A stretch of 64,000 nucleotides of DNA from Halorubrum sp. BOL3-1 (GTDB lineage: Archaea; Halobacteriota; Halobacteria; Halobacteriales; Haloferacaceae), in the NCBI RefSeq assembly GCF_004114375.1, contig NZ_CP034692.1, positions 3,038,001 through 3,102,000 on the forward strand. Direction: 5' to 3'. This document shows positions 12,585-23,885 of this stretch, in pieces; position 1 is the stretch's first letter, and the number at the start of each line of letters is the position of its first letter. The translations under genes and the position numbers were made by a program. Below the pieces are notes generated by a model. The model was not told where the DNA came from, ran no database searches, and saw only the letters and a list, made by a program, of their open reading frames with translations.

Positions 12585-13559
12585 TCATTCTGCATCAGGT
12601 GGGTCTCCTGACGAATGGCCAGATTCGGATCCCGACCTGCTACCGGCATCTGAGTCGGGTCCTGTTGATCCGCCGGATTCCTTTTTTGATGGGGAGTTTG
12701 ATGTGCTGTCAGTATCACTGTTATTGTCGTTATCAGCACCGGATCCGTTATTGGACTGTTCGTCCGATTTGGACGCCGATTCATCGTTGGATTCTCCACC
12801 AGACGCCCCTATATCGTCTTGTTCTGAATCGTTGTCAGGAGACGAAGCTGGGGGGTCCGACGGCGCCAGCCGCTGACTGGCGTCGGTAGGCTCCGAGTCT
12901 GAGTCCGAGTTCGAATCTGAATTTGAGCCATCGTCAGGTGGTACGTCAGCGTCCGAGTCCGAGTCTCGCTCCGAGGACGCTGTGTCCCCGTCTGTGCCAG
13001 AAGGGCCCTCGTCGGGGTTTGTTTCGCTCTTAGAAGAGTGGCCGGCGTCTTCCGACTCGTCTGTCTCCTCGGATGCCGAGCCTTCTGGGCCCTCAGATGC
13101 CGACTCGTCCGACTCTTCCGACGCCAGTTCATCCGACTCTTCTGATGCTGAGTCTTCTGGCTCTTCAGAGACCGACTTCTCCGACTCTTTTGGCGCTGGT
13201 TCATCCAACTCCTCGGATGCCGAGTCTTCTGGGACTTCAGATATCGGCTTCTCCGGTGCTCCGGATTCTCCGGATTTCTCGGACGGTGGATCGTCTGATT
13301 GCGGCTCCAGATTCATATCTGTGGAGGACTTCAACTCATCGCCCTCTGCAGGGGGTTCCAGATTGGGATCAGACTCTAATCCGTTGTCGGGTACGTCCGT
13401 TATATCGCCATTGAGCGAGACCGGACCGGGAGCTGGCACGTCAACATCGAAGCCGACCGAAACCGACTCCTCGTCCGACAGTAGCGCGACAGACATGCCA
13501 CCGGTCGTCGCCGCGAAGGCCACAAACAGGGCGCAGACGGCCGCGAGCAACTTACTCAT
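12585..13559 (-). CDS. Ser/Asp/Glu-rich secreted low-complexity protein of the fibre locus
   Basis: I choose ATG 13559 (MSKLLAAVCALFVAFAATTG) because it overlaps the signal-peptidase stop (ATGAGTAA). The product has 324 residues. A signal peptide or N-terminal membrane anchor is followed by GGMSVALLSDEESVSVGF, which resembles the SipW-dependent type (a small hydrophobic segment, then S-D-E-E-S). The rest is a low-complexity region with 13-residue-like repeats of SEEPEDSASEESDE style, then Ser-Asp-Asn runs. Such regions serve as extended, highly charged stalks on halophile surfaces. It is the last gene of the operon. Its role as a matrix or spacer protein is inferred. Confidence 0.7.
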   Translation of the reverse strand: MSKLLAAVCALFVAFAATTGGMSVALLSDEESVSVGFDVDVPAPGPVSLNGDITDVPDNGLESDPNLEPPAEGDELKSSTDMNLEPQSDDPPSEKSGESGAPEKPISEVPEDSASEELDEPAPKESEKSVSEEPEDSASEESDELASEESDESASEGPEGSASEETDESEDAGHSSKSETNPDEGPSGTDGDTASSERDSDSDADVPPDDGSNSDSNSDSDSEPTDASQRLAPSDPPASSPDNDSEQDDIGASGGESNDESASKSDEQSNNGSGADNDNNSDTDSTSNSPSKKESGGSTGPDSDAGSRSGSESGHSSGDPPDAE

Positions 13560-14508
13560 CGTTGTCCTCCGAGGCCTCGCCACCGTCCGGAACGGGGAGC
13601 GCGGGTGAGTGAGCGGGTTCGGCGACGCAGTCGGCCCGCCAGGCTGCGACAGTCACCCACCCGGCGAAGAGCAGGCCAAGCAGCCCTGCAGTGAGCGCAC
13701 CGACTGACAGCGGCGTCGGTGCCGCAGTGATGGTGAACTCGCGGTAGACATTCCATCCCGCGTACGCGAACAGGACTCCCATCGCCAGCAGCGTGAGTTT
13801 CAGATCCACGACCGCGAGCAGAACTGTATCAGCCGACGGTAGAGCGTTGGAGTCCGGGGTTAGATCCGAGTCCGACCCATCGTCGGCTGGACTGCTGCCA
13901 GACCCCTCGACACCGGCAGGGATGACCGGCACGGCCGCTTCAACATTCCCGTCCGCTGGCGACTCGGCGTCGCTGACCGTCCGCGTTGAATCCGCCGATT
14001 CGTCCGCAGACGCTCCGGACTCACGGCGGGCCCAGGCGACTAGTTCACTCACGCCGAGTAACATCAAGGGGACGACAACGAGCGAGACGTACCCAACAGG
14101 TGTGTTCGCCCACAGGATTACGTGGCCGACAAGCGGGATAGTGATTACAACACGTCCGACGATCGCATCAGGGACGACAAGTCCTGCATCAACGTTGTCA
14201 TTGGCGTCTCCTTTGGTTTCGTAACCCCCATCGCGCTCACCGACAACGCGATGTGTCGTCGGGACAGTGTCGCCAGTCCGGTAGGTGATGATGTCACCGA
14301 CACTGATCGGTACAGATGCGTCGACGATGACCACGTCGCCGGGCGAGAGCGCCGGCTCCATACTGCCCGAAAGGACGACGTACCCTTCGTCGGCCCCGGT
14401 GAGTTCCGGGACAGCGAAGACGGCAAACGGTGAGATTGTCGCGAGCAGGATGAGAATCACAACCAAATTGCGTGCACTCGGCATCGACAGCCTTGACGCG
14501 AGGCTCAT
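13552..14508 (-). CDS. SipW-type signal peptidase I
   Basis: The product has 318 residues and its ATG overlaps the stop of the upstream gene (ATGA). After an N-terminal membrane segment (NLVVILILLATISPFAVFAV) comes the catalytic core of the archaeal/ER type: VVLSGSMEPALSPGDVVIVD with nucleophile Ser49, TTHRVV with His86 in place of the bacterial Lys, and KGDANDN with the acid at about 101-104. Further membrane segments follow, then a Ser/Asp-rich loop and two more membrane helices near the C-terminus. It lies inside the operon for proteins with SipW-dependent signal peptides, so it probably cleaves them. Confidence 0.9.
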   Translation of the reverse strand: MSLASRLSMPSARNLVVILILLATISPFAVFAVPELTGADEGYVVLSGSMEPALSPGDVVIVDASVPISVGDIITYRTGDTVPTTHRVVGERDGGYETKGDANDNVDAGLVVPDAIVGRVVITIPLVGHVILWANTPVGYVSLVVVPLMLLGVSELVAWARRESGASADESADSTRTVSDAESPADGNVEAAVPVIPAGVEGSGSSPADDGSDSDLTPDSNALPSADTVLLAVVDLKLTLLAMGVLFAYAGWNVYREFTITAAPTPLSVGALTAGLLGLLFAGWVTVAAWRADCVAEPAHSPALPVPDGGEASEDNDE

Positions 14509-15776
14509 TGGTTGCCTCCAGGTGAGACAGCGGGATCGGGCTTGTTCCCATCTCTGTCTTCGACTCCATTTTGATCGTCGTCGCCGCTATGTCTATCGCT
14601 GTCATGCTTGCTTCCGTTTCCGTTGCTGTACCCGTTTCCATTCTCATTATCGCTCCCGCCGTTTGAGAGCGAGGGATCAGTACAGCCTGGGCAGTCTGCC
14701 TCCGACTCGGGCGTGCAGACGCAGACCGTGACGTGGCTGATCCCCGTCCCCACCGGTGCGTAGACGATCCCGTCGGCGTCGCTCCCGGGCAGATCCGTCG
14801 TGTCGACAGAGAGCCCGTCCACGCGGTCGTACTGCTCGAACCCGCGGCCACCTTTGACTGCAACTGTACAGAGCGCGGGGGCAGTCCCGCCGTCGAGGGC
14901 TACCAGCCGGAATGCGACCCCGACTGTCTCGCGTTCGCTGTCCTTGTCGGCAGTGTCGTAGATTTCTAGCCCGTAGTCGGCGTCGCCATCGGTGAACGCG
15001 TACGTTCCGGGGTCAGCGTAACTGTCGCCGAGTCCGGGTTGCGTTCCCTCGAAATCCAGTTTGCCGAGCGTGCGGCAGCACGGACAGGGGTCGGCGGTGG
15101 GAGTAGGGCACGGTCCCGTCTTCGACCCGTCAAAGGGGTTCTCCGGCGTTGTGTGCCGGCACTGGACCGCCGCGAACCACATCGGCAGATCTACGGTCTC
15201 ACTTCCGACGTAGCCGCTGAGTTCATACTCAACGAGCAGACAGACTGTGTCAATCAGGCAACTGTCGCCGGGGGTCGTCAAGTCGCCATCGATGCGGTAC
15301 CCGCCTTGGAGGTCCTCGGCGACCGCCCGGAGTGGCCCGTCGGCGATCTGGTGGCCTAGAGAGTCGGACGTGCAGTCGGTGTACGACACGGTCATCTGGA
15401 TCGATTCGGCCAGCGCGGTCGACGCCGGCACAGGACAGTCGGTCGCAAGCCACAGTGCTGCGGGGTTGTTGACCGCGTCATCGTCCTGTGGCAGCGCGAA
15501 CGTGAGGAGCATACTTCCGGAATTGTGATCGGGACCGAGCGATCCGATCGGGATGTCTACCCGTGGACCATCGATCTTCCCCTGCCCGTCGGGGCTGTCG
15601 GCGCCCGGACCGGTCAGCAGCTCGTACTCGACGACCAGATCGACTATACCGGCCGTCAGCGACACGTCGAACCGCTCCGTGTCATGGAGCATCGCAGCCG
15701 TTCCGATACCGGTGAGCGCGCCCGCTCCGCCCGCGGCTGCCAGGGCCGCTAGCACACGGCGCCGGGTCAGGGTCAT
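14505..15776 (-). CDS. Exported protein with SipW-like N-terminus and Cys-rich middle
   Basis: The product has 423 residues and overlaps its neighbours by ATGA on both sides. The N-terminus MTLTRRRVLAALAAAGGAGA is a twin-arginine-like or SipW-dependent signal, followed by TAAMLHDTERFDVSLTAGIV, which matches the pattern after the cleavage site in TasA-like proteins. The middle has a Cys cluster (TADPCPCCRTLGKLDF) and several further Cys that could form disulfides outside the cell. The last 60 residues are Asn/Gly/Asp repeats. It is likely a structural or accessory component of the surface fibre. Confidence 0.75.
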   Translation of the reverse strand: MTLTRRRVLAALAAAGGAGALTGIGTAAMLHDTERFDVSLTAGIVDLVVEYELLTGPGADSPDGQGKIDGPRVDIPIGSLGPDHNSGSMLLTFALPQDDDAVNNPAALWLATDCPVPASTALAESIQMTVSYTDCTSDSLGHQIADGPLRAVAEDLQGGYRIDGDLTTPGDSCLIDTVCLLVEYELSGYVGSETVDLPMWFAAVQCRHTTPENPFDGSKTGPCPTPTADPCPCCRTLGKLDFEGTQPGLGDSYADPGTYAFTDGDADYGLEIYDTADKDSERETVGVAFRLVALDGGTAPALCTVAVKGGRGFEQYDRVDGLSVDTTDLPGSDADGIVYAPVGTGISHVTVCVCTPESEADCPGCTDPSLSNGGSDNENGNGYSNGNGSKHDSDRHSGDDDQNGVEDRDGNKPDPAVSPGGNQ

Positions 15777-16645
15777 CGCGACCCCCCGACAGGGAAGGGG
15801 CTGTCTCCGCCGCAGGGACCACCGGCGAAGGAAAACTCGAAGCCGAGGGAGTCGCCCTGCGCCCGGTTCCCCGTTCCATCAGGGACGTCCCACCGGAGCG
15901 CAACGCACCGCAGCGTTCCTGGGTCGAGGCAGTCAAACGCGAGCAACCCGTCGCTGCCGCCGACGTCCGTCGTGGAATCAAACGCCTCGACGAAGGGCAC
16001 GGGCCCGACAAGCGGCGATTCAAGCGTCTCGTCGAACTCTTTTCGGCCATTGCAGCTGCCGAACGGCGATCCGTCGCGCCACACTTCCACGACCGCGACC
16101 TCATCGAGTTCACCGTCGTCGGGCGTCGTATCGCCGGCGACCCGCTCTGGTTCGTTGATTCCGTTTTCACGATCTTCAGTTACTGACGCGCGGAGCCACA
16201 CGCCGAGCGGGTCCGCGAAGTCTTCGGCAACTTCGAGCCCGACGACGAGCACACCCGTGTCGCCCGGGAGAACGTTCCCCACGGAAATAACTGGACCAGA
16301 TGCGTCGGTTACGAACGTCGCTTCTTCGGCGTATCCGGGGCCGTCATCTGGGTCAAGCGTCGTTTCGAGGTCATCGTCGGTGTCGGCGTGGTTTTCCACA
16401 AACACACCGTTGTACTTTTCGTACCAAGCGATTCTGAGGCGTCTGTCGTCGGTGTCGTCGTCAGGCGCGGCGTACGTGTACTGCGAGAACCGACGCGAGT
16501 CGCGGGTCGATCCCGTGAGGGCAGTGAGCCCGCCGACAGCGAGCGTCCCGCCGCCGATTCCTGTCAACAGTTCCCGACGTGTGAGTGTCATTGGTGGTGT
16601 CCCGGATACGCCGGGTCGGTTGGTGGACCGATCGCGTCGGTCCAT
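15773..16645 (-). CDS. Exported TasA/SipW-substrate-like protein, first gene of the second fibre operon
   Basis: The promoter core CCTATACT lies about 27 bases before ATG 16645, so a leaderless transcript starting there is likely. ATG 16591 (MTLTRRELLTGIGGGTLAVG) is the alternative and gives a more typical signal peptide. The mature part is a beta-rich domain with VISVGNVLPGDTGVLVVGLE, the step seen in archaeal TasA-like proteins, and ends in a conserved block GNRAQGDSLGFEFSF that all three fibre proteins share. Cys residues are few. It overlaps the next gene by ATGA. Inferred role: fibre subunit or cap. Confidence 0.75.
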   Translation of the reverse strand: MDRRDRSTNRPGVSGTPPMTLTRRELLTGIGGGTLAVGGLTALTGSTRDSRRFSQYTYAAPDDDTDDRRLRIAWYEKYNGVFVENHADTDDDLETTLDPDDGPGYAEEATFVTDASGPVISVGNVLPGDTGVLVVGLEVAEDFADPLGVWLRASVTEDRENGINEPERVAGDTTPDDGELDEVAVVEVWRDGSPFGSCNGRKEFDETLESPLVGPVPFVEAFDSTTDVGGSDGLLAFDCLDPGTLRCVALRWDVPDGTGNRAQGDSLGFEFSFAGGPCGGDSPFPVGGSR

Positions 16646-16670
16646 GTTCAGAGGGTGGTACGACAGCAGG

Positions 16671-16685
16671 GAGTATAGGTATGGA
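16671..16685 (-). promoter_or_regulatory. Promoter core identical to that of the divergent regulator
   Basis: On the minus strand TCCATACCTATACTC is identical over 15 bases to the sequence at 19953-19967 upstream of the regulator gene. It contains the TATA box and lies 26 bases before the ATG at 16645. Upstream of it on the minus strand are GTACCG-type boxes near 16702, 16713 and 16734, the last two 21 bp apart. Confidence 0.7.
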
Positions 16686-16790
16686 CCGGCTTCACGCGCG
16701 GTACGGTGCTCGTACCCGGCGATAGGGCGTCCGTACCGCGGTCCATAGCACGGTCGCGGGGGAGCAACGTTGGGTCGTTGCGGTCGCCGA

Positions 16791-18506
16791 TCAGGTGGTC
16801 AGTTGCGGCCCGGCGCCGTCGTTGTTCCGCTCCTGCTCGGTGTAGAAGCCGAGGTCGAAGCCCAGGGTGTCGCCCTGGACCTCGTTGCCGACCTCGTCGA
16901 ACGGGAGCTCCCACGAGAGCCCGATGCAGTACATCACGCCGTTGCCGCGGAACGCGTCGCGATCCGAGTCGTCGGCCGAGTCGTTCAGCTCGTCGTACAG
17001 CGTCGCGCGGTTCCCGTCGAGCGGGATCCCGTTGCCGTCCGCCAGTTCATCGAGAATGGCCCCGAGGCTGTCCTCCATGATGACTTTCTCCTCTGTGGCC
17101 TGTGCCGCGAGGTTTCCGAACACGCTCGGGATGTCGAGCGGGTCGTTGACGTCGTTGAAGAATACCGGGTCGCCGCCGGACTCGCCCGCGGCACCGGCCA
17201 TCGCCTGAAGGGTGCTCGCGCTGCCGTTCACGTTGATGGTGTAGACATCGGTTTCAGGCGACGGCGACGCCGCACGGGCGTCGTCGGCCGCGCCGACCGG
17301 CGAGGCGAACTGCGTACTCCCGGTCCCGTTGAACGACTCCCCGTCCGAGAGGACGATGTTCCGGTACGTGACTCCAGTGCGGCCGTTCGTCACGAGTTCG
17401 CCCTGGGCGTCGTCAACGCCCTCGCCGATGTAGGTGCCCGTCGCGATACCGTTGCTGGAGAACGGGTCCGAGTCGCCGTCACCGTCGAACGGCGTCGATG
17501 GGGCGCTGCCGGTCACGACATTCGCAAGCTTCTCCCGAAGTCCTGCGAGCGCGTCATCAACATCCGAGAGGTCGGTCGTCAGCGCCTGGAGGATCCCGGT
17601 CCGGGGTATGTTGTCGTCGCTACCCTCACCGTCGAAGTACGCGACGCCGACCTGGACATCCGCGTTCGCCGACTGGAGGAAGTCGACGAACTGGCGGGTC
17701 CCGAGTTCGACGAGGTCAATCTTCGTCGTCTCGTTGTAGGAACGGGGGTTTCCGCTAATTCCGTTGATCGAGATACTGTCATCACTGATGAGCCCGTCGT
17801 ACTCCTCGTACAGCATCGAGCCGGAGAAGTCCAGCGTCAACATGATATCGACCGGCTCGACCGCGTCGTAGACGTTGTCGCAGTCCTCGTCGTACCACAG
17901 TCTCGCTTGGATCGCGTCACCGAGGTCGCCAAGGTTGTCGGGGTCAACCGCTTCCTCGGGGTCAGTGAACATACCACCATCCTCAGTGACGTTGTCGGCC
18001 TGCATCCAGAGGTACCCGGGATTGTCACACAGGTGCAGCGAGAACGTGATCTCGCCTGAGTCGCCGGGCTTCACGTCGGAGAACTGCACCAGCGTGTCCA
18101 TCTCTTCCTCCGTGACGGGGTCGGTTCCGAAATCGGCCTCCGACAGCGGCGGGATGTTTTCGCAGTTCAGCTCCGGGATGTTCGCGCCGTTGCTATCCGG
18201 ATCGGTCTCGTCCGGGAAGTCGCTGTAACTGAGGACTTCTTCAGTCTCCGGGTCGATGATCGACTGCTCGCCGTCGCCGTCGTGGTCGGGGTGAGCGCTG
18301 ACGAAGGTCAGCCCCTCGCCAAAGTCGTAGGTCTGTTGCCAGTCGACCAGCAGGTCGAGTTCGCCCGCGGTCAACGTATTGTCTTCGAAGCTCTCCTCGT
18401 CGGAAAAGAAGGCGCTCGTACCGACGCCGGCACCCGCGGAGGCGACGCCGACAACACCGATACCCGCGAGCATCTTGCGGCGAGAGAGTCTGAGTTTGTC
18501 GTCCAT
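16791..18506 (-). CDS. TasA-like surface protein with inserted von Willebrand factor A domain
   Basis: The product has 571 residues from ATG 18506. The N-terminus (LSRRKMLAGIGVVGVASAGA, then AFFSDEESFEDNTLTAGELD) is a textbook SipW-dependent signal. The TasA-like beta domain runs to about residue 215 (SDVKPGDSGEITFSLHLCDN). It is then interrupted by a vWA domain with MIDAS motif DFSGSM at 226-231 and a matching ILSD-type strand. It resumes at the end with NEVQGDTLGFDLGFYTEQER. vWA domains bind metal and mediate adhesion, so this is a candidate adhesive tip or cross-linking subunit. It lies 193 bases downstream of the tasA-like gene, with a tRNA-like hairpin in between. Confidence 0.88.
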   Translation of the reverse strand: MDDKLRLSRRKMLAGIGVVGVASAGAGVGTSAFFSDEESFEDNTLTAGELDLLVDWQQTYDFGEGLTFVSAHPDHDGDGEQSIIDPETEEVLSYSDFPDETDPDSNGANIPELNCENIPPLSEADFGTDPVTEEEMDTLVQFSDVKPGDSGEITFSLHLCDNPGYLWMQADNVTEDGGMFTDPEEAVDPDNLGDLGDAIQARLWYDEDCDNVYDAVEPVDIMLTLDFSGSMLYEEYDGLISDDSISINGISGNPRSYNETTKIDLVELGTRQFVDFLQSANADVQVGVAYFDGEGSDDNIPRTGILQALTTDLSDVDDALAGLREKLANVVTGSAPSTPFDGDGDSDPFSSNGIATGTYIGEGVDDAQGELVTNGRTGVTYRNIVLSDGESFNGTGSTQFASPVGAADDARAASPSPETDVYTINVNGSASTLQAMAGAAGESGGDPVFFNDVNDPLDIPSVFGNLAAQATEEKVIMEDSLGAILDELADGNGIPLDGNRATLYDELNDSADDSDRDAFRGNGVMYCIGLSWELPFDEVGNEVQGDTLGFDLGFYTEQERNNDGAGPQLTT

Positions 18507-18516
18507 TGTGTATCAT

Positions 18517-18528
18517 CCCCATATGGGG
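18517..18528. promoter_or_regulatory. 12-bp palindrome just upstream of the vWA fibre gene
   Basis: CCCCATATGGGG is a perfect palindrome ending 10 bases before the ATG at 18506. A related ACCCTATGGGGT lies at 19672-19683 upstream of the tasA-like gene. It could be an operator or a translational hairpin. Confidence 0.45.
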
Positions 18529-18530
18529 AA

Positions 18531-18575
18531 ATCCCACCGGCGGAATCGAACCGCCGTAGTGCACCAACGTGGGAT
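18531..18575 (-). other. tRNA-like minihelix (acceptor stem plus T-arm) in the leader of the vWA fibre gene
   Basis: On the minus strand a seven-base stem ATCCCAC/GTGGGAT (18575-18569 and 18537-18531) stacks directly on a hairpin CGGCGG-TTCGATT-CCGCCG. TTCGATT matches the universal tRNA T-loop pattern, and the junction without spacer on the 3' side is as in tRNA. A 12-base linker (GTTGGTGCACTA) replaces the D-arm, anticodon and variable regions, so this is not a tRNA gene. It lies between two fibre genes and could be a substrate for tRNA-processing enzymes in the mRNA, or chance. Confidence 0.5.
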
Positions 18576-18699
18576 CCGGGCTGGCCCGCCGTCCGTGACG
18601 GTCGCTTCGCCGGACAGTCGGGGTGAACAGCGGGGAATCGAGGGATACTGCAGGAGTGATCCCTCGGTGATGCCGCCGTTCGATTAGTTCACCGGAGCG

Positions 18700-19605
18700 T
18701 TACTGCCCACCAGTTGAGTTGTTCACCGGTGTCGAATTGTTCACGGGTGCGGAGTTGTTGAACGGGTTCTCGTTGTTCCGGACCTGTTCGGTCTTGAACA
18801 CGAGGTCGAAGGAGACGCTGTCTCCCTGCACGACGTTGCCAACTTCGTAGGGCAACTCGATGAGGAGACAGAATTCGTATACATCGGCGTCGTTGTCGTC
18901 GTCGCCGACGACGACCGGTTCGCCGGCGTCGTCCTTGACGATGTAGCCGCCGTTGGCCGCGTCGAGGATGGCATCCGCCTCACGTGCGGTGGTGTGGTGC
19001 TGGTCCGCGTCGACGACACCACCGAGGTCGGGCTTGCCGTAGGCCAGCGGGATGATGTCGCTGTTGTTGTTGAAGACGGGATCAAGGATGTTCAGGTCGG
19101 ACTTCGAGCCGCCGGGGCCACCGTCGTACCCCTGCCAGACGGTGGTCAGCAGGTACTCACCTAGATCGGCGTCGTTGTCGGTGTCGCCCTCAGCTTCCTG
19201 TTCGGGGTCGGGGTTGGCACCGCCGGCCTCCGCGAAGTTCTCCGTGCACACCTGTACGTAGCCGGGGTTGTCACCGACTTCGATTTCGAAGCAGATGATG
19301 CCCCAGTCACCGGGCTTGATATCGTCGACGGTCAGACCCATGACGGGGTCTTCATCATCGGCGACGGCGGACACGTCGAGGCCACCCTGGTTCACCCAGT
19401 ATTCGTTTGCGGCCACCACGTCCGCGGTGACGCTCATGTCGAGGGTTCCGGCCGTCAGGCTGTTGTTCTCGAAGGTCTCCTCGTCGCTGAAGTACGCTGA
19501 CGTGCCGAGGCCGGCCCCCGCGGAGGCGAGGCCGACAGCACCGAGACCAGCAAGCATTTTGCGCCGCGAGAGGCTGTACAGTTGGGGGTTGTTGTCGTCT
19601 GTCAT
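18700..19605 (-). CDS. TasA-like surface-fibre protein with SipW-dependent signal peptide
   Basis: The product has 301 residues from ATG 19605. The signal region is LSRRKMLAGLGAVGLASAGA, then TSAYFSDEETFENNSLTAGT, the standard haloarchaeal SipW-dependent type. The mature domain is beta-rich and acidic, with DDIKPGDWGIICFEIEVGDN and the shared end block NVVQGDSVSFDLVFKTEQVR. It closes with a short repeat of NNSTPVNNST type. TasA in Bacillus and the archaeal bundling pili are fibres of this fold, so this is the likely main fibre subunit. The upstream region holds a phased array of regulator sites. Confidence 0.88.
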   Translation of the reverse strand: MTDDNNPQLYSLSRRKMLAGLGAVGLASAGAGLGTSAYFSDEETFENNSLTAGTLDMSVTADVVAANEYWVNQGGLDVSAVADDEDPVMGLTVDDIKPGDWGIICFEIEVGDNPGYVQVCTENFAEAGGANPDPEQEAEGDTDNDADLGEYLLTTVWQGYDGGPGGSKSDLNILDPVFNNNSDIIPLAYGKPDLGGVVDADQHHTTAREADAILDAANGGYIVKDDAGEPVVVGDDDNDADVYEFCLLIELPYEVGNVVQGDSVSFDLVFKTEQVRNNENPFNNSAPVNNSTPVNNSTGGQ

Positions 19606-19774
19606 TGGTCTGTTTCCCGGTTGGACTGCGATCGCGAAATCGCCCGGTCACTTCGGGACAAACCACCCAACACCCTATGGGGTATTACCTATGCACTGAT
19701 TCAACGAATTCAGGCTCTTGCTACCGTGTTCTTAACGGGTATTGCGGGGATTTATCGCCCGAATACGCTGGACG

Positions 19775-19931
19775 TACTGTATTATCCGCCAGTCGTACCG
19801 CCGAGTTCGGTGGTCCTACCGGTCGTATCCAGCCGCCATACCGGCTTGTCCGTGTGAACATACCGGTTCGTACACTCCCCGTACCGGTCACATCCGTTCA
19901 GCGTGCCGGTTCGGTATGGTCGCCGTTCCGC
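19775..19931. promoter_or_regulatory. Phased array of TACCGG boxes, about 21.5-bp period
   Basis: TACCGG or a close variant occurs at 19775 (TACTGT), 19796 (TACCGC), 19817, 19839, 19861, 19882 (all TACCGG), 19904 (TGCCGG) and 19926 (TTCCGC). The spacings are 21, 21, 22, 22, 21, 22 and 22, about two helix turns, so all boxes face one side of the DNA. The array fills the space between a minus-strand TATA-like GATAAATC near 19750 and the regulator's TATA box near 19961. It is the obvious binding region for a cooperative regulator. Confidence 0.75.
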
Positions 19932-19952
19932 TTCAGACGGAACGGCTGTGAA

Positions 19953-19967
19953 TCCATACCTATACTC
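19953..19967 (+). promoter_or_regulatory. Promoter core of the fibre-locus regulator
   Basis: TCCATACCTATACTC is identical to the promoter core at 16671-16685 (minus). The TATA element CCTATACT lies about 27 bases before ATG 19990, so the transcript should be leaderless. Confidence 0.7.
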
Positions 19968-19989
19968 AGAGGGCACGTTCCGTATATCG

Positions 19990-20532
19990 ATGTTCCAGCA
20001 AGCCACGTTGCCTGAGGTGGAGGTGTACGAGGTCCTGAGCAACGCGCGCCGACGTAAAGCCCTCACGGAGCTGTGGGCACAGCCGGACACCCTGTCGCTG
20101 CGCGAGCTGTCAGAGCGGATCGCAGCAACGGAGTCTGGACAGACCCCCGCGCCGCGGGCACTCCGAGAGAGCGTCTACAACGCACTCCATCAAGTTCACC
20201 TCCCAAAGCTGGACGCCCTCGGGCTGGTAGTGTACGACCCGGACCGAAAGACGGTGCGGGTCTGCTCCCGGGCGAGCCACCTCAGCCGATACATGGATGT
20301 GACAACCCGTGCCGGCGTGACGTGGGGCGAATACTATCGCGGGCTGGGGATTGTCGGCCTGTTCGCAACCGTCGGATCGTTAGCATCTGTCCCGGTACTC
20401 TCCGCAGTCGATCCCCTTGTTCCCGCAACCGTCTTCCTCCTAGTGTTTGCCATCTCAACTCTCTACCAGTTGGGCGTCGGCCGACTGAGACTTCGAGGAC
20501 GGATCACACGGCTTTACAGGCGGCTGTTCTAA
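19990..20532 (+). CDS. Winged-helix regulator with membrane segment, divergent to the fibre locus (DUF7344 type)
   Basis: I choose ATG 19990 (MFQQATLPEVEVYEVLSNAR) on the TATA spacing. The longer GTG start at 19903 would run through the operator array. The product has 180 residues. Residues 10-95 are the winged helix typical of haloarchaeal DUF7344 proteins (VLSNARRRKALTELWAQPDT, LRESVYNALHQVHLPKLDAL), and two hydrophobic segments follow near 120-165. The identical promoter core at the fibre operon, and the operator array upstream, make it the likely regulator of the fibre genes and of itself. Confidence 0.8.
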   Translation: MFQQATLPEVEVYEVLSNARRRKALTELWAQPDTLSLRELSERIAATESGQTPAPRALRESVYNALHQVHLPKLDALGLVVYDPDRKTVRVCSRASHLSRYMDVTTRAGVTWGEYYRGLGIVGLFATVGSLASVPVLSAVDPLVPATVFLLVFAISTLYQLGVGRLRLRGRITRLYRRLF

Positions 20533-20648
20533 TCTGCGGGAACACAATCACTTGACGGGGAGGTTGACACCACACGAGTGAACATGAGGGAGCTGCTCTT
20601 GATATATCACAGATATGACCTACGGCTCAGATAACAAAAGAGTACAAA

Positions 20649-21470
20649 TTAGCTGTCGGCGACAGCAGTAGCGTCCGTCTCGAAGAGTCGGGCGTTACAA
20701 CCTTGGCACGTAGCGGCTACGACCTCGTACTCACGGCAGCAGGAACTCACCAACTCCGTGCCGAGCTGAATTTTGTCCGAACAGATGGGGCAGGTATCGA
20801 GACATGCCCGGATCGCCGAGAGCGTCTGCCCGCGGGCGGCCCCTGGAACCGAGTCCCACCCGTAAGCCCACTCCGAGAGCGTGTGATGGGCAGCAAGGTC
20901 GGCGATGAACGCCGCACGCGACTCCCACTGCCCGCGTATCGACTCGTCGACGACGACGCGCCATGAGGAGCCAGCGCTAACAAAGGAGATCCGGTCCGGG
21001 TCGAGATCAAGGAGATCGGCCGAGCCGGCAGTGAGGGCCGCGTCAGAGTCAAGATCAAGCGCGGCCGCTTCGAGGCGGGTTTCGAACGCCGGGTCAAGCG
21101 CGATGTCATTTCCGTCATCGACGACGATCGATGTACGGTCGAGGAAAGCGACGACGTCGAAGTCGTCTGTCGAGACGGACGCCGACGCTCCGGCTCCAGA
21201 CTTCCCGAACCACCCGAGTACTCGGTCGGGGAGGTACCGCTTCGTCAGCGTCGGCGTTCCCGGCACAAGATACCCACGGAGGTAGATACTCGCGAGCGAT
21301 ACTGCCGCGACTGCGAGGGCAGCCGCTGGAGAACCAACTGCGATTACACCGACGAGTACTGCCGTGAGAACGAGGTTGACAGCGGTACAGGGAAGACAGC
21401 GGTTGTCACCGGTGTACTCTGGCCGGCGAAGACGCGCCAGCACCGACCATGGGTGTTGTTGCTGATCCAT
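20649..21470 (-). CDS. Membrane protein with N- and C-terminal Cys motifs, unknown function
   Basis: The product has 273 residues from ATG 21470. The N-terminus carries NRCLPCTAVN (CxxC), followed by two membrane segments (VLTAVLVGVIAVGSPAAALA, VAAVSLASIYL). A soluble acidic domain follows. The C-terminal 60 residues hold a zinc-ribbon-like set (CLDTCPICSDKI, SSCCREYEVVAATCQGCNAR). This architecture is frequent in haloarchaea, but I know no function for it. It is convergent with the fibre regulator and divergent from the second DUF7344-type regulator. Confidence 0.7.
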   Translation of the reverse strand: MDQQQHPWSVLARLRRPEYTGDNRCLPCTAVNLVLTAVLVGVIAVGSPAAALAVAAVSLASIYLRGYLVPGTPTLTKRYLPDRVLGWFGKSGAGASASVSTDDFDVVAFLDRTSIVVDDGNDIALDPAFETRLEAAALDLDSDAALTAGSADLLDLDPDRISFVSAGSSWRVVVDESIRGQWESRAAFIADLAAHHTLSEWAYGWDSVPGAARGQTLSAIRACLDTCPICSDKIQLGTELVSSCCREYEVVAATCQGCNARLFETDATAVADS

Positions 21471-21754
21471 CTCTATATTTCTGAATGCCAGCGGAACTCA
21501 TAGGTATGGTCGGCGTATCCATCGGGAGACCCGGACAGCTCCAAGTACGGCGTCATGTCCAAATCGAGATGAATCGTAAGTCCGTCTGTGGTGATAATCG
21601 GTTGTCCCACGACGCTCCAGAGTCACGAGAGTTTGAAAGTGCGGAGATTTTATTCTCTGAACGACTGAGCCTCAGACCGTCTACTGTGTGAAAAACAGGG
21701 GTATAGTCATTTTAATTTCATAAAATTTATATTCTCATATCGATATATGGTCTC

Positions 21755-22375
21755 ATGAAGTCAAAGAGCCAAGTGTTAACAGATACCGAAAAGGCTCTCG
21801 GCACAAACTCATCAGACGATACGGAACTATCGAGAGAAGCCGTATTCGAGATGTTGAGTAGCCGGCGGCGACGGTATACTCTTCACTATCTTTTTCAACG
21901 AGGTGAATTGGTAACGATCCGCGAGCTATCGGAACAGCTTGCGGCGTGGGAGAACCACATCGACAGGCAGGCCGTGACACCGAAGCAGCGGAAGCGGGTG
22001 TACACCGCACTTCACCAGACGCACCTTCCTAGGATGGACAGGTTCGGCGTCGTCGAGTTTGATAGAGACCGGGGGACGATCGCAATGACCGACCACGTGG
22101 CGGAGTTCGACATCTACTTGGACGTGGTACCACAGGACGACATTCCGTGGAGCCAGTTTTACCTCGCGCTCGGCGCGGTCCTATTGGCGCTTGTCGTGGC
22201 TGCGATGGTTGAAGTCCCACCGTTCTCGTACGTAGGGGGGTTCGGGTACGCGCTATTTGTCGCGGCGACGCTCACGATCGCGGGATGTGTACATACGCTC
22301 CGCGAGCGTCGGACGCTCGTCGGGACCACTGCGACGCCGCTGGAGGTCGAGCCGCCGCGGGAGATCGACGAATAA
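21755..22375 (+). CDS. Second winged-helix regulator with membrane segments (DUF7344 type)
   Basis: The product has 206 residues from ATG 21755. A TTTATATT TATA box about 28 bases upstream points to a leaderless transcript. The winged helix is at about 28-105 (VFEMLSSRRRRYTLHYLFQR, RKRVYTALHQTHLPRMDRFG), close to the fibre-locus regulator in order and motifs. Two hydrophobic segments follow (FYLALGAVLLALVVAAMVEV and FGYALFVAATLTIAG). The two paralogs 1.2 kb apart may act at the same operators. A membrane-tethered regulator is the family pattern. Confidence 0.78.
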   Translation: MKSKSQVLTDTEKALGTNSSDDTELSREAVFEMLSSRRRRYTLHYLFQRGELVTIRELSEQLAAWENHIDRQAVTPKQRKRVYTALHQTHLPRMDRFGVVEFDRDRGTIAMTDHVAEFDIYLDVVPQDDIPWSQFYLALGAVLLALVVAAMVEVPPFSYVGGFGYALFVAATLTIAGCVHTLRERRTLVGTTATPLEVEPPREIDE

Positions 22376-22484: not shown

Positions 22485-23885
22485 CAGTACCTCACAAAGC
22501 ATCCTCGGCTAGCTGTTTCTGCGGCCTGAGTTCTGTGTCGAAGCGGTTGTACTGAGGCTCTTGACGAGAGGATTACGGTGGATCGACGGAGAGCTGTCGC
22601 TGTCGGCGGCGATCAGCCGCCGACGCGACAGCGTCGCCACTCACTCTGCTGGCTTGCTCGGTCGGTGGTTAGCGGTAGAATCGGTCGTCAGGTGGCCGAT
22701 TCGCGGGGACGGCCCGACGCACCGCGAGGGCCGTCCACGCAGCTCGTCGAACCATATTGACGAACTCCTTGTACGGCCACCACCAGAGGCGACGCCCGCC
22801 TCGGCGGGGCGTCGCCACATACTCGTAGTGAAGGTACCGCCAGATGTTCTGTAAGAGGAGACTCACCACCACGTACAGCAGTCGTACCGTTGGATCTCGT
22901 GTTGTCGTTGTCGCTATCGCTTGCTCAAACAATCGATAGCTTGATTCGATACCGAACCGCTTGCTGTAGTGGTATCGAGCGTCGCGTGGTGAGTCGATGA
23001 ACGGCGCGTCAGCGGCGTAGCCGTGACGCGCCACCCCGTTCTCGTCATACTTCCCGTTCAGGTACGTACAGTCGATGTAGACGGGAAACTCGACGGTCCA
23101 GCTGTGACCGTCGAGTTTCCCTGTCAGATCGTGCTGAATGACGCGGCTCCATCCTTCCGAGAGCTCCTGCTGAATCGTCTCACCCCACCGGATGATCGGG
23201 ATCACGTACGCGTAATTGTGCGCCTGAAGCAGCGTGAGACACTTACTGTCGTAGAATCCGCGATCAAGGTAGACGGCCTTGACCCCGGTGTCAAGGCCGT
23301 CGAGGACACCAAAGAACTCAGCGAGGACACTGCTGGTGGTATCGCCGTCTCGGAGACGGCGTACCGCCAGCGTGTAGCGTTTGTTCGTCACACGCGCGTA
23401 GAGTGTGGCGTAGGCGTGGAACGCAGTAGTTCCACGCTTCGCTACCGAGTGATAGAGGTCGTCTGTGTCGTCTTCGTCACCGTAGTAGGGCCGCAGGTGG
23501 AGGTCTGCGCAGACCTCCACCTGCTCGGGGAGCAGTTCATCGAGATTCTTCCGCAGGAGCGTGTTAGCGACTCGTTCGAGCCGATCCGGCTCGAACTTCG
23601 TCCGGAGATGGTAGAGGACCGTGTTCGCAGCGGGTGAGTTCTGGCTCGAAGCACAAAGCGTAGAGACAGAGGTCCCGTCGGCGCAAGCGCCGACGAGGAC
23701 CTCATAGATGTCCTCAGCAGTGATCTCAGCGTTATTGGCTAAGGAGAGCGGAACTTCCTCGTCAAGGCGGTTGACGAGAAAGTTAAGAAGCTGGTCCTCG
23801 TGAATCTCACCGTCTGCTTGCTGCTGTTTGTTAGGCACATTCGCAGCAAGCAGACGTTCTAACTAAGCGGCTTTGTGAAGTACTG
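22485..23885 (-). mobile_element. ISH3-family insertion sequence, 1401 bp, with 5-bp target duplication
   Basis: The ends are inverted repeats CAGTACCTCACAAAGC (22485-22500) and, reversed, CAGTACTTCACAAAGC (23870-23885). The five bases ATGTT flank both sides (22480-22484 and 23886-23890). Length, repeat type and duplication size fit ISH3. The transposase frame is intact and the duplication is perfect, so the insertion is recent. Confidence 0.93.
22669..23838 (-). CDS. ISH3-family transposase
   Basis: The product has 389 residues from ATG 23838. The DDE residues sit in HAYATLYARVTNKRYTLAVR, KAVYLDRGFYDSKCLTLLQA and RFGIESSYRLFEQAIATTTT (Glu). The N-terminal 110 residues are the helical domain typical of the ISH3 group (QLLNFLVNRLDEEVPLSLAN). 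The C-terminus ends in an aromatic block with LQNIWRYLHYEYVA. The frame is complete. The enzyme moves the 1401-bp element that encodes it. Confidence 0.9.
   Translation of the reverse strand: MPNKQQQADGEIHEDQLLNFLVNRLDEEVPLSLANNAEITAEDIYEVLVGACADGTSVSTLCASSQNSPAANTVLYHLRTKFEPDRLERVANTLLRKNLDELLPEQVEVCADLHLRPYYGDEDDTDDLYHSVAKRGTTAFHAYATLYARVTNKRYTLAVRRLRDGDTTSSVLAEFFGVLDGLDTGVKAVYLDRGFYDSKCLTLLQAHNYAYVIPIIRWGETIQQELSEGWSRVIQHDLTGKLDGHSWTVEFPVYIDCTYLNGKYDENGVARHGYAADAPFIDSPRDARYHYSKRFGIESSYRLFEQAIATTTTRDPTVRLLYVVVSLLLQNIWRYLHYEYVATPRRGGRRLWWWPYKEFVNMVRRAAWTALAVRRAVPANRPPDDRFYR

Follow-up and report, generated by a model that had tools for sequence, protein, structure and literature searches.

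In Halorubrum sp. BOL3-1, the intergenic region between the first gene of a SipW/TasA-like secreted-protein operon and the divergent gene for a DUF7344 protein carries an array of short direct repeats which is conserved, phased and one-directional at such gene pairs in several haloarchaeal genera, and which stands in a fixed register to the putative core promoters on both of its sides. All coordinates given here refer to the window, by which we mean the whole stretch of 64,000 nucleotides that was analysed. The array is very likely a regulatory element. Our main reading, to which we assign a probability of roughly two in three, is that it is a multi-site operator of the SipW/TasA-like matrix operon, bound by the adjacent DUF7344 protein (19990..20532, forward strand) and likely activating.

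An earlier note on this DNA had described eight boxes with a period of 21-22 bp, and on re-reading the sequence every coordinate matched. All eight are on the forward strand: box 1 at 19775..19780 (TACTGT, where three orthologues have TACCGC and Halonotius has TACCAG), box 2 at 19796..19801 (TACCGC), boxes 3 to 6 at 19817..19822, 19839..19844, 19861..19866 and 19882..19887 (each TACCGG), box 7 at 19904..19909 (TGCCGG, weak and poorly conserved) and box 8 at 19926..19931 (TTCCGC, likewise weak, with TTCCGT, TGCCGC or TGCCGA in orthologues). The consecutive spacings are 21, 21, 22, 22, 21, 22 and 22 bp, and the autocorrelation of 19761-19950 has its maxima at 21-22, 43-44, 65 and 86-87. As boxes 7 and 8 are weak both in the window and in its orthologues, the conserved core consists of the six boxes at 19775-19882.

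When the 384-bp intergenic region is scored for chains of TACCGG boxes at 21/22 bp, it reaches 38, far above its shuffled versions: 5000 dinucleotide shuffles gave a mean chain score of 6.4 and a maximum of 20, and none reached 38. To correct for a motif chosen after looking, the shuffles were also scored with any 6-mer of the region and any pair of spacings from 12 to 40, and again none of 2819 reached 38 (maximum 28). Since no shuffle attained the observed score even with 6-mer and spacing left free, the array is not a product of chance. It is also unique to the TasA/DUF7344 locus within its own genome. Across the 3.67 Mb, three TACC(G) boxes at the array spacing are present here and at one other site; the latter falls inside a long reading frame, and we accordingly rejected a regulon spread elsewhere in the genome.

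Conservation was assessed by two routes. When 148 genomes of the family were searched for a pattern of three TACCGG boxes, 16 of them matched, and the reversed pattern gave a single hit; at four of the matched loci (L013-L016) the divergent gene pair and the array are those of the window, and the rest are mostly near-identical tandem repeats. A search based on a DUF7344 alignment yielded 43 named haloarchaeal loci, most of them with a gene for a SipW-signal protein divergently upstream. Carriers of the array fall into two clades of DUF7344. Clade A comprises Halobellus, Haloglomus, Halonotius, Halorientalis and the window, with DUF7344 proteins 59-78% identical, the Halorientalis arrays being degenerate and less clean than those of the other three genera. 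Clade B comprises Halorubrum and Halobellus captivus, with DUF7344 proteins about 45-50% identical. Eight clade-A loci, the window excluded, contain 23 pairs of TACCG at 21/22 bp against a mean of 0.27 at other spacings, and ten clade-B loci contain 30 against a mean of 0.07. Orientation is equally one-sided, at 44 forward to 5 reversed in clade A (again without the window) and 45 to 6 in clade B, and nearly all boxes are directed toward the DUF7344 gene. A motif-agnostic scan settled of its own accord on 21 or 22 bp at sixteen clade-A and clade-B loci, not all of them significant when taken singly, and on other spacings in the twelve control stretches. Finally, when five clade-A species are compared, identity is 89% in the box cores and 48% in the linkers (p 3e-11). 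The array spacing is thus kept at orthologous SipW/DUF7344 loci in several genera, as the earlier note's reading of these boxes would lead one to expect.

The two-turn array has a limited distribution. No significant 21-22 bp array was detected at the loci of Natrialbaceae, Haloarchaeobius, Halosimplex and Halobacterium, where some TACCG pairs spaced by 32-34 bp are no more than suggestive. The window's genome also contains another divergent pair of SipW-signal and DUF7344 genes (L108, at C3:2600270), which has no TACCG array. Given this pair and the DUF7344-TasA loci of several genera that lack a significant array, DUF7344 does not always need one. The matches of an order-wide pattern search were for the most part tandem repeats of near-identical units or single sites elsewhere, and at the eight loci from it that were followed up we found no convincing DUF7344 or SipW homologue nearby. 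At two loci, L160 (G019:C29) and L163 (G124:C1), unrelated genes are preceded by four TACCG boxes with the 21-22 bp spacing; no convincing DUF7344 or SipW homologues lie nearby, and the boxes are probably tandem repeats.

In a third DUF7344 clade, which belongs to the same genus as the window, the boxes are TAC(C/T) and follow one another every 32 bp, or three helical turns. These boxes lie upstream of the third-clade DUF7344 genes, between the TasA-type promoter and DUF7344 (L045-L058 and L117-L128). Pooled over the clade there are 47 pairs at 32 bp, 22 at 64 and 10 at 96, counts which are non-independent as the loci are related, and a dozen of these related loci have four-box chains, nearly all spaced 32, 32, 32. 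Taken locus by locus, the 32-bp array is not significant in the motif-agnostic test. Natronorubrum (L087, L092) has TACCG pairs with a spacing of about 33 bp in front of the DUF7344 gene, perhaps another three-turn array.

We located a putative core promoter for the TasA-like operon at 19681..19694 on the reverse strand (GGTATTACCTATGC as read on the forward strand), which is conserved in ten aligned clade-A sequences, and a putative TATA element for the DUF7344 gene at 19955..19964 on the forward strand (CATACCTATA, with CATACATAT in relatives). The array sits between the two and overlaps neither. Box 1 of the window lies 94 bp from the TasA-like core promoter, and box 6 precedes the DUF7344 TATA-like element by 73 bp (by 72-73 in most clade-A orthologues). 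Over clade A, the boxes stand at 94/95, 115/116, 136-138, 158-160, 180/181 and 201/202 bp from the TasA core and at -180, -159, -137, -115, -94 and -73 relative to the DUF7344 TATA-like element, so that the register to both core promoters is held within about 1 bp in most loci. The distance between the promoters in clade A is 274/275, 252, 232/233 or 189 bp, that is, the full length or a length shorter by one, two or four units, and in most clade-B loci it is 295 or 273/274. Recombination between repeats, as well as selection for phase, could produce such whole-unit changes. Outside the box array, an element GTAGTTAC followed by (C)ACGTCAC occurs at the TasA-type promoter of the third-clade loci and of L071-L073, L086, L087 and L092, and is perhaps a core promoter plus the site of a second regulator.

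Two turns between boxes had also been taken to place them all on one face of the DNA. The two-turn phasing stands; a strictly single face requires 10.7-10.9 bp per turn, the value given over two turns by the mean spacings of 21.4 bp in clade A and 21.7 bp in clade B, and at 10.5 bp per turn successive boxes are rotated by about 20 degrees. A weaker TCCG element stands 10-11 bp beyond many clade-A boxes, which would be compatible with two half-sites in each unit; we regard this as a lead rather than a result.

On the reverse strand, the first gene of the operon (18700..19605) encodes a secreted protein with a SipW-dependent signal of the TasA/camelysin-like type (PF12389, E 4.7e-6; TIGR04088, E 9.6e-9, above cut-off), followed by a second SipW-signal protein (16791..18506; TIGR04088, E 2e-6, above cut-off; PF12389 score just below cut-off), such that two secreted proteins of the operon carry the TIGR04088 signal domain. 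Two further secreted proteins (15773..16645 and 14505..15776) have no family match, and the next gene (13552..14508) encodes an archaeal signal peptidase I (TIGR02228, E 2.7e-22, above cut-off). We term the latter SipW-like only, since it passes TIGR02228 and misses the cut-off of the dedicated SipW model NF046067 (E 2.8e-21; 76 bits against a cut-off of 190). At the operon end, 12585-13583 encodes a Ser/Asp/Glu-rich secreted protein with tandem repeats that looks like a surface-attached or matrix protein. On the other side of the array, the adjacent DUF7344 gene is followed by a reverse-strand gene for a conserved cysteine-containing protein of unknown family (20649..21470; 64-67% identity at the Halobellus, Haloglomus and Halonotius loci) and then by a second DUF7344 gene on the forward strand (21755..22375; PF24035, E 7.3e-31), which is conserved in clade A.

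The adjacent DUF7344 protein matches PF24035 over residues 13-90 (E 4.3e-26; 91.5 bits against a cut-off of 27.8). It had been described as a winged-helix membrane protein from its letters alone, and the predictions bear this out: the AlphaFold2 model (mean pLDDT 84) together with hydropathy gives a winged helix followed by two hydrophobic, presumably membrane, helices. When the model was compared with solved structures, RosR ranked first (Z 10.0, 111 residues aligned, rmsd 4.3, 10% identity), with many other winged helices tied within 1, and TubR was among the neighbours (Z 9.1). A DUF7344 profile found no match among the sequences of solved structures, and Foldseek by itself returned weak matches only with the model (best E 0.05).

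Because the array lies between the two core promoters without overlapping them and in fixed register, we favour an upstream activating operator. Arguing from position alone, it is moderately likely that the array activates rather than represses the TasA operon. The opposite sign of control would follow if the regulator coated the intergenic region and held both genes off until a signal at the membrane removed it. In keeping with such a repressing coat, the array occupies most of the space between the promoters and boxes 7 and 8 come near the DUF7344 TATA element; however, the strong boxes stop 72-73 bp from that element and start about 95 bp from the TasA core, and archaeal repressors usually overlap the TATA/BRE or the start site. 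We consider repression of this kind improbable, if well worth bearing in mind.

A second question is which protein occupies the array. The adjacent DUF7344 protein is likely the binder, and it is the best candidate because it is the sole regulator present at all array loci; the array type follows its clade, the array is unique in the genome, and the clade-B loci examined have the array without the second DUF7344. When array type is mapped on the DUF7344 tree, 3 changes suffice against a shuffled mean of 23.4, a pattern which shows co-inheritance rather than binding, since array, DUF7344 and TasA genes are linked. That same linkage leaves room for the operator to be real and its binder to be another protein, such as the second DUF7344 (21755..22375) or a distant regulator, for co-inheritance of the three cannot single out a binder. 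There are 11 DUF7344 matches in the window's genome, and in clade A, as at several other loci, another DUF7344 gene stands beside the array. In contrast, clade-B loci have the array with no second DUF7344 within the flanks examined, no second array site in the own genome points to a distant regulator, and the array type tracks the clade of the adjacent protein. A different binder is, in our judgement, somewhat less probable still than repression.

With the adjacent protein as the binder of an upstream activating array, the following mechanism can be proposed. Membrane-anchored DUF7344 molecules would occupy the co-oriented boxes at one unit every 21-22 bp (two turns), lying head-to-tail and side by side along one side of the DNA, which they may coat cooperatively. 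DUF7344 would sense a signal at the membrane, and a filled array would most likely activate the TasA operon about 95 bp away. It may also adjust the DUF7344 gene itself; such autoregulation is plausible and would give the control in both directions that the earlier note proposed.

Readings in which the boxes have no role in transcription fare much worse. Tandem repeats do gain and lose whole units, as these arrays do, and near-identical TACCG tandem repeats exist elsewhere in haloarchaeal genomes, so that one might take the array for a functionless, decaying minisatellite. We ruled this out on the grounds that the boxes are conserved and the linkers are not, and that Tandem Repeats Finder reports no array at 19775-19931; moreover, different genera keep the spacing and register, as does a clade with a DUF7344 about 48% identical, which makes a minisatellite very improbable. 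Even less probable are iterons or a partition site, which 21-22-bp direct repeats and a TubR-like fold might bring to mind: no replication initiator or TubZ-like gene was recognised nearby, the immediate neighbours at the array loci examined being the SipW-signal and DUF7344 genes, the contig that holds the locus measures 3.37 Mb, and the array loci have the same two divergent genes in common. Coding sequence was also rejected, given stops in most frames of the orthologues and spacing shifts of 1 bp.

The closest parallel among known systems is bacterial. In Bacillus subtilis, RemA, a ring-forming protein related to LytTR, activates tapA-sipW-tasA and binds direct repeats that recur periodically upstream of epsA; these are AT-rich regions of 7 bp with a period of about 10 bp (PMC8481266). 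Both systems have helically periodic direct repeats over about 100-160 bp upstream of matrix operons that include a SipW/TasA operon, and RemA is a matrix-gene activator. However, although the TasA-like operon here is likewise preceded by periodic direct repeats, these lack the AT-rich 7-bp regions and the period of about 10 bp: the boxes are GC-rich TACCGG every 21-22 bp, and the candidate binder is a membrane-anchored winged-helix protein. The resemblance is probably one of convergence.

Winged-helix proteins offer further comparisons. RosR (VNG0258H) of Halobacterium salinarum, the first-ranked structural neighbour, is a haloarchaeal winged-helix DNA-binding protein, but it is soluble and binds single palindromic sites, whereas DUF7344 has two predicted membrane helices and the boxes form a long series of direct repeats. 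Bacterial boxes of the PhoB/OmpR type consist of half-sites that point the same way at a distance of about 11 bp, with 22 bp to a unit; head-to-tail winged-helix proteins bind them, usually in one to three units. The weaker TCCG element of clade A recalls this layout; DUF7344, in contrast, has a membrane anchor and no receiver domain, and we found no sequence relationship. In TubR/tubC centromere arrays a winged-helix protein sits on iterated boxes, and TubR is a fold neighbour of the DUF7344 model, but the present locus has neither partition genes nor a plasmid context.

In the open-access literature searched (subscription papers were outside its scope), DUF7344 is not mentioned, nothing relevant turned up on a haloarchaeal operator of this form, in agreement with the earlier note's statement that none had been described, and no description was found of how haloarchaeal SipW/TasA-like secreted-fibre operons are controlled. 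The locus brings together a cis element, a candidate regulator and a target operon in a layout resembling the RemA arrays upstream of the Bacillus TasA operon, and its natural variants, which differ in box number and in two- or three-turn spacing, make the mechanism directly testable. More tentatively, and with the odds against so broad a claim, the arrays could represent a new class of archaeal control element, in which membrane-anchored winged-helix proteins would line up head-to-tail on long one-directional arrays of whole-turn spacing (two turns in clades A and B, three in the third clade) phased to both promoters, coating the promoter region of a fibre operon and bringing it to the membrane as one cooperative switch.

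The locus as a whole (12585-22375) is nearer to those of Halobellus, Halonotius and Halorientalis, with DUF7344 59-78% identical and the second SipW-signal protein up to 79%, than to the loci of its own genus that are of the 48% type. From these sequence comparisons, horizontal transfer of the whole locus is possible. An ISH3-family transposase gene (22669-23838; NF033541, E 8e-114) lies 0.3 kb past the second DUF7344 gene.
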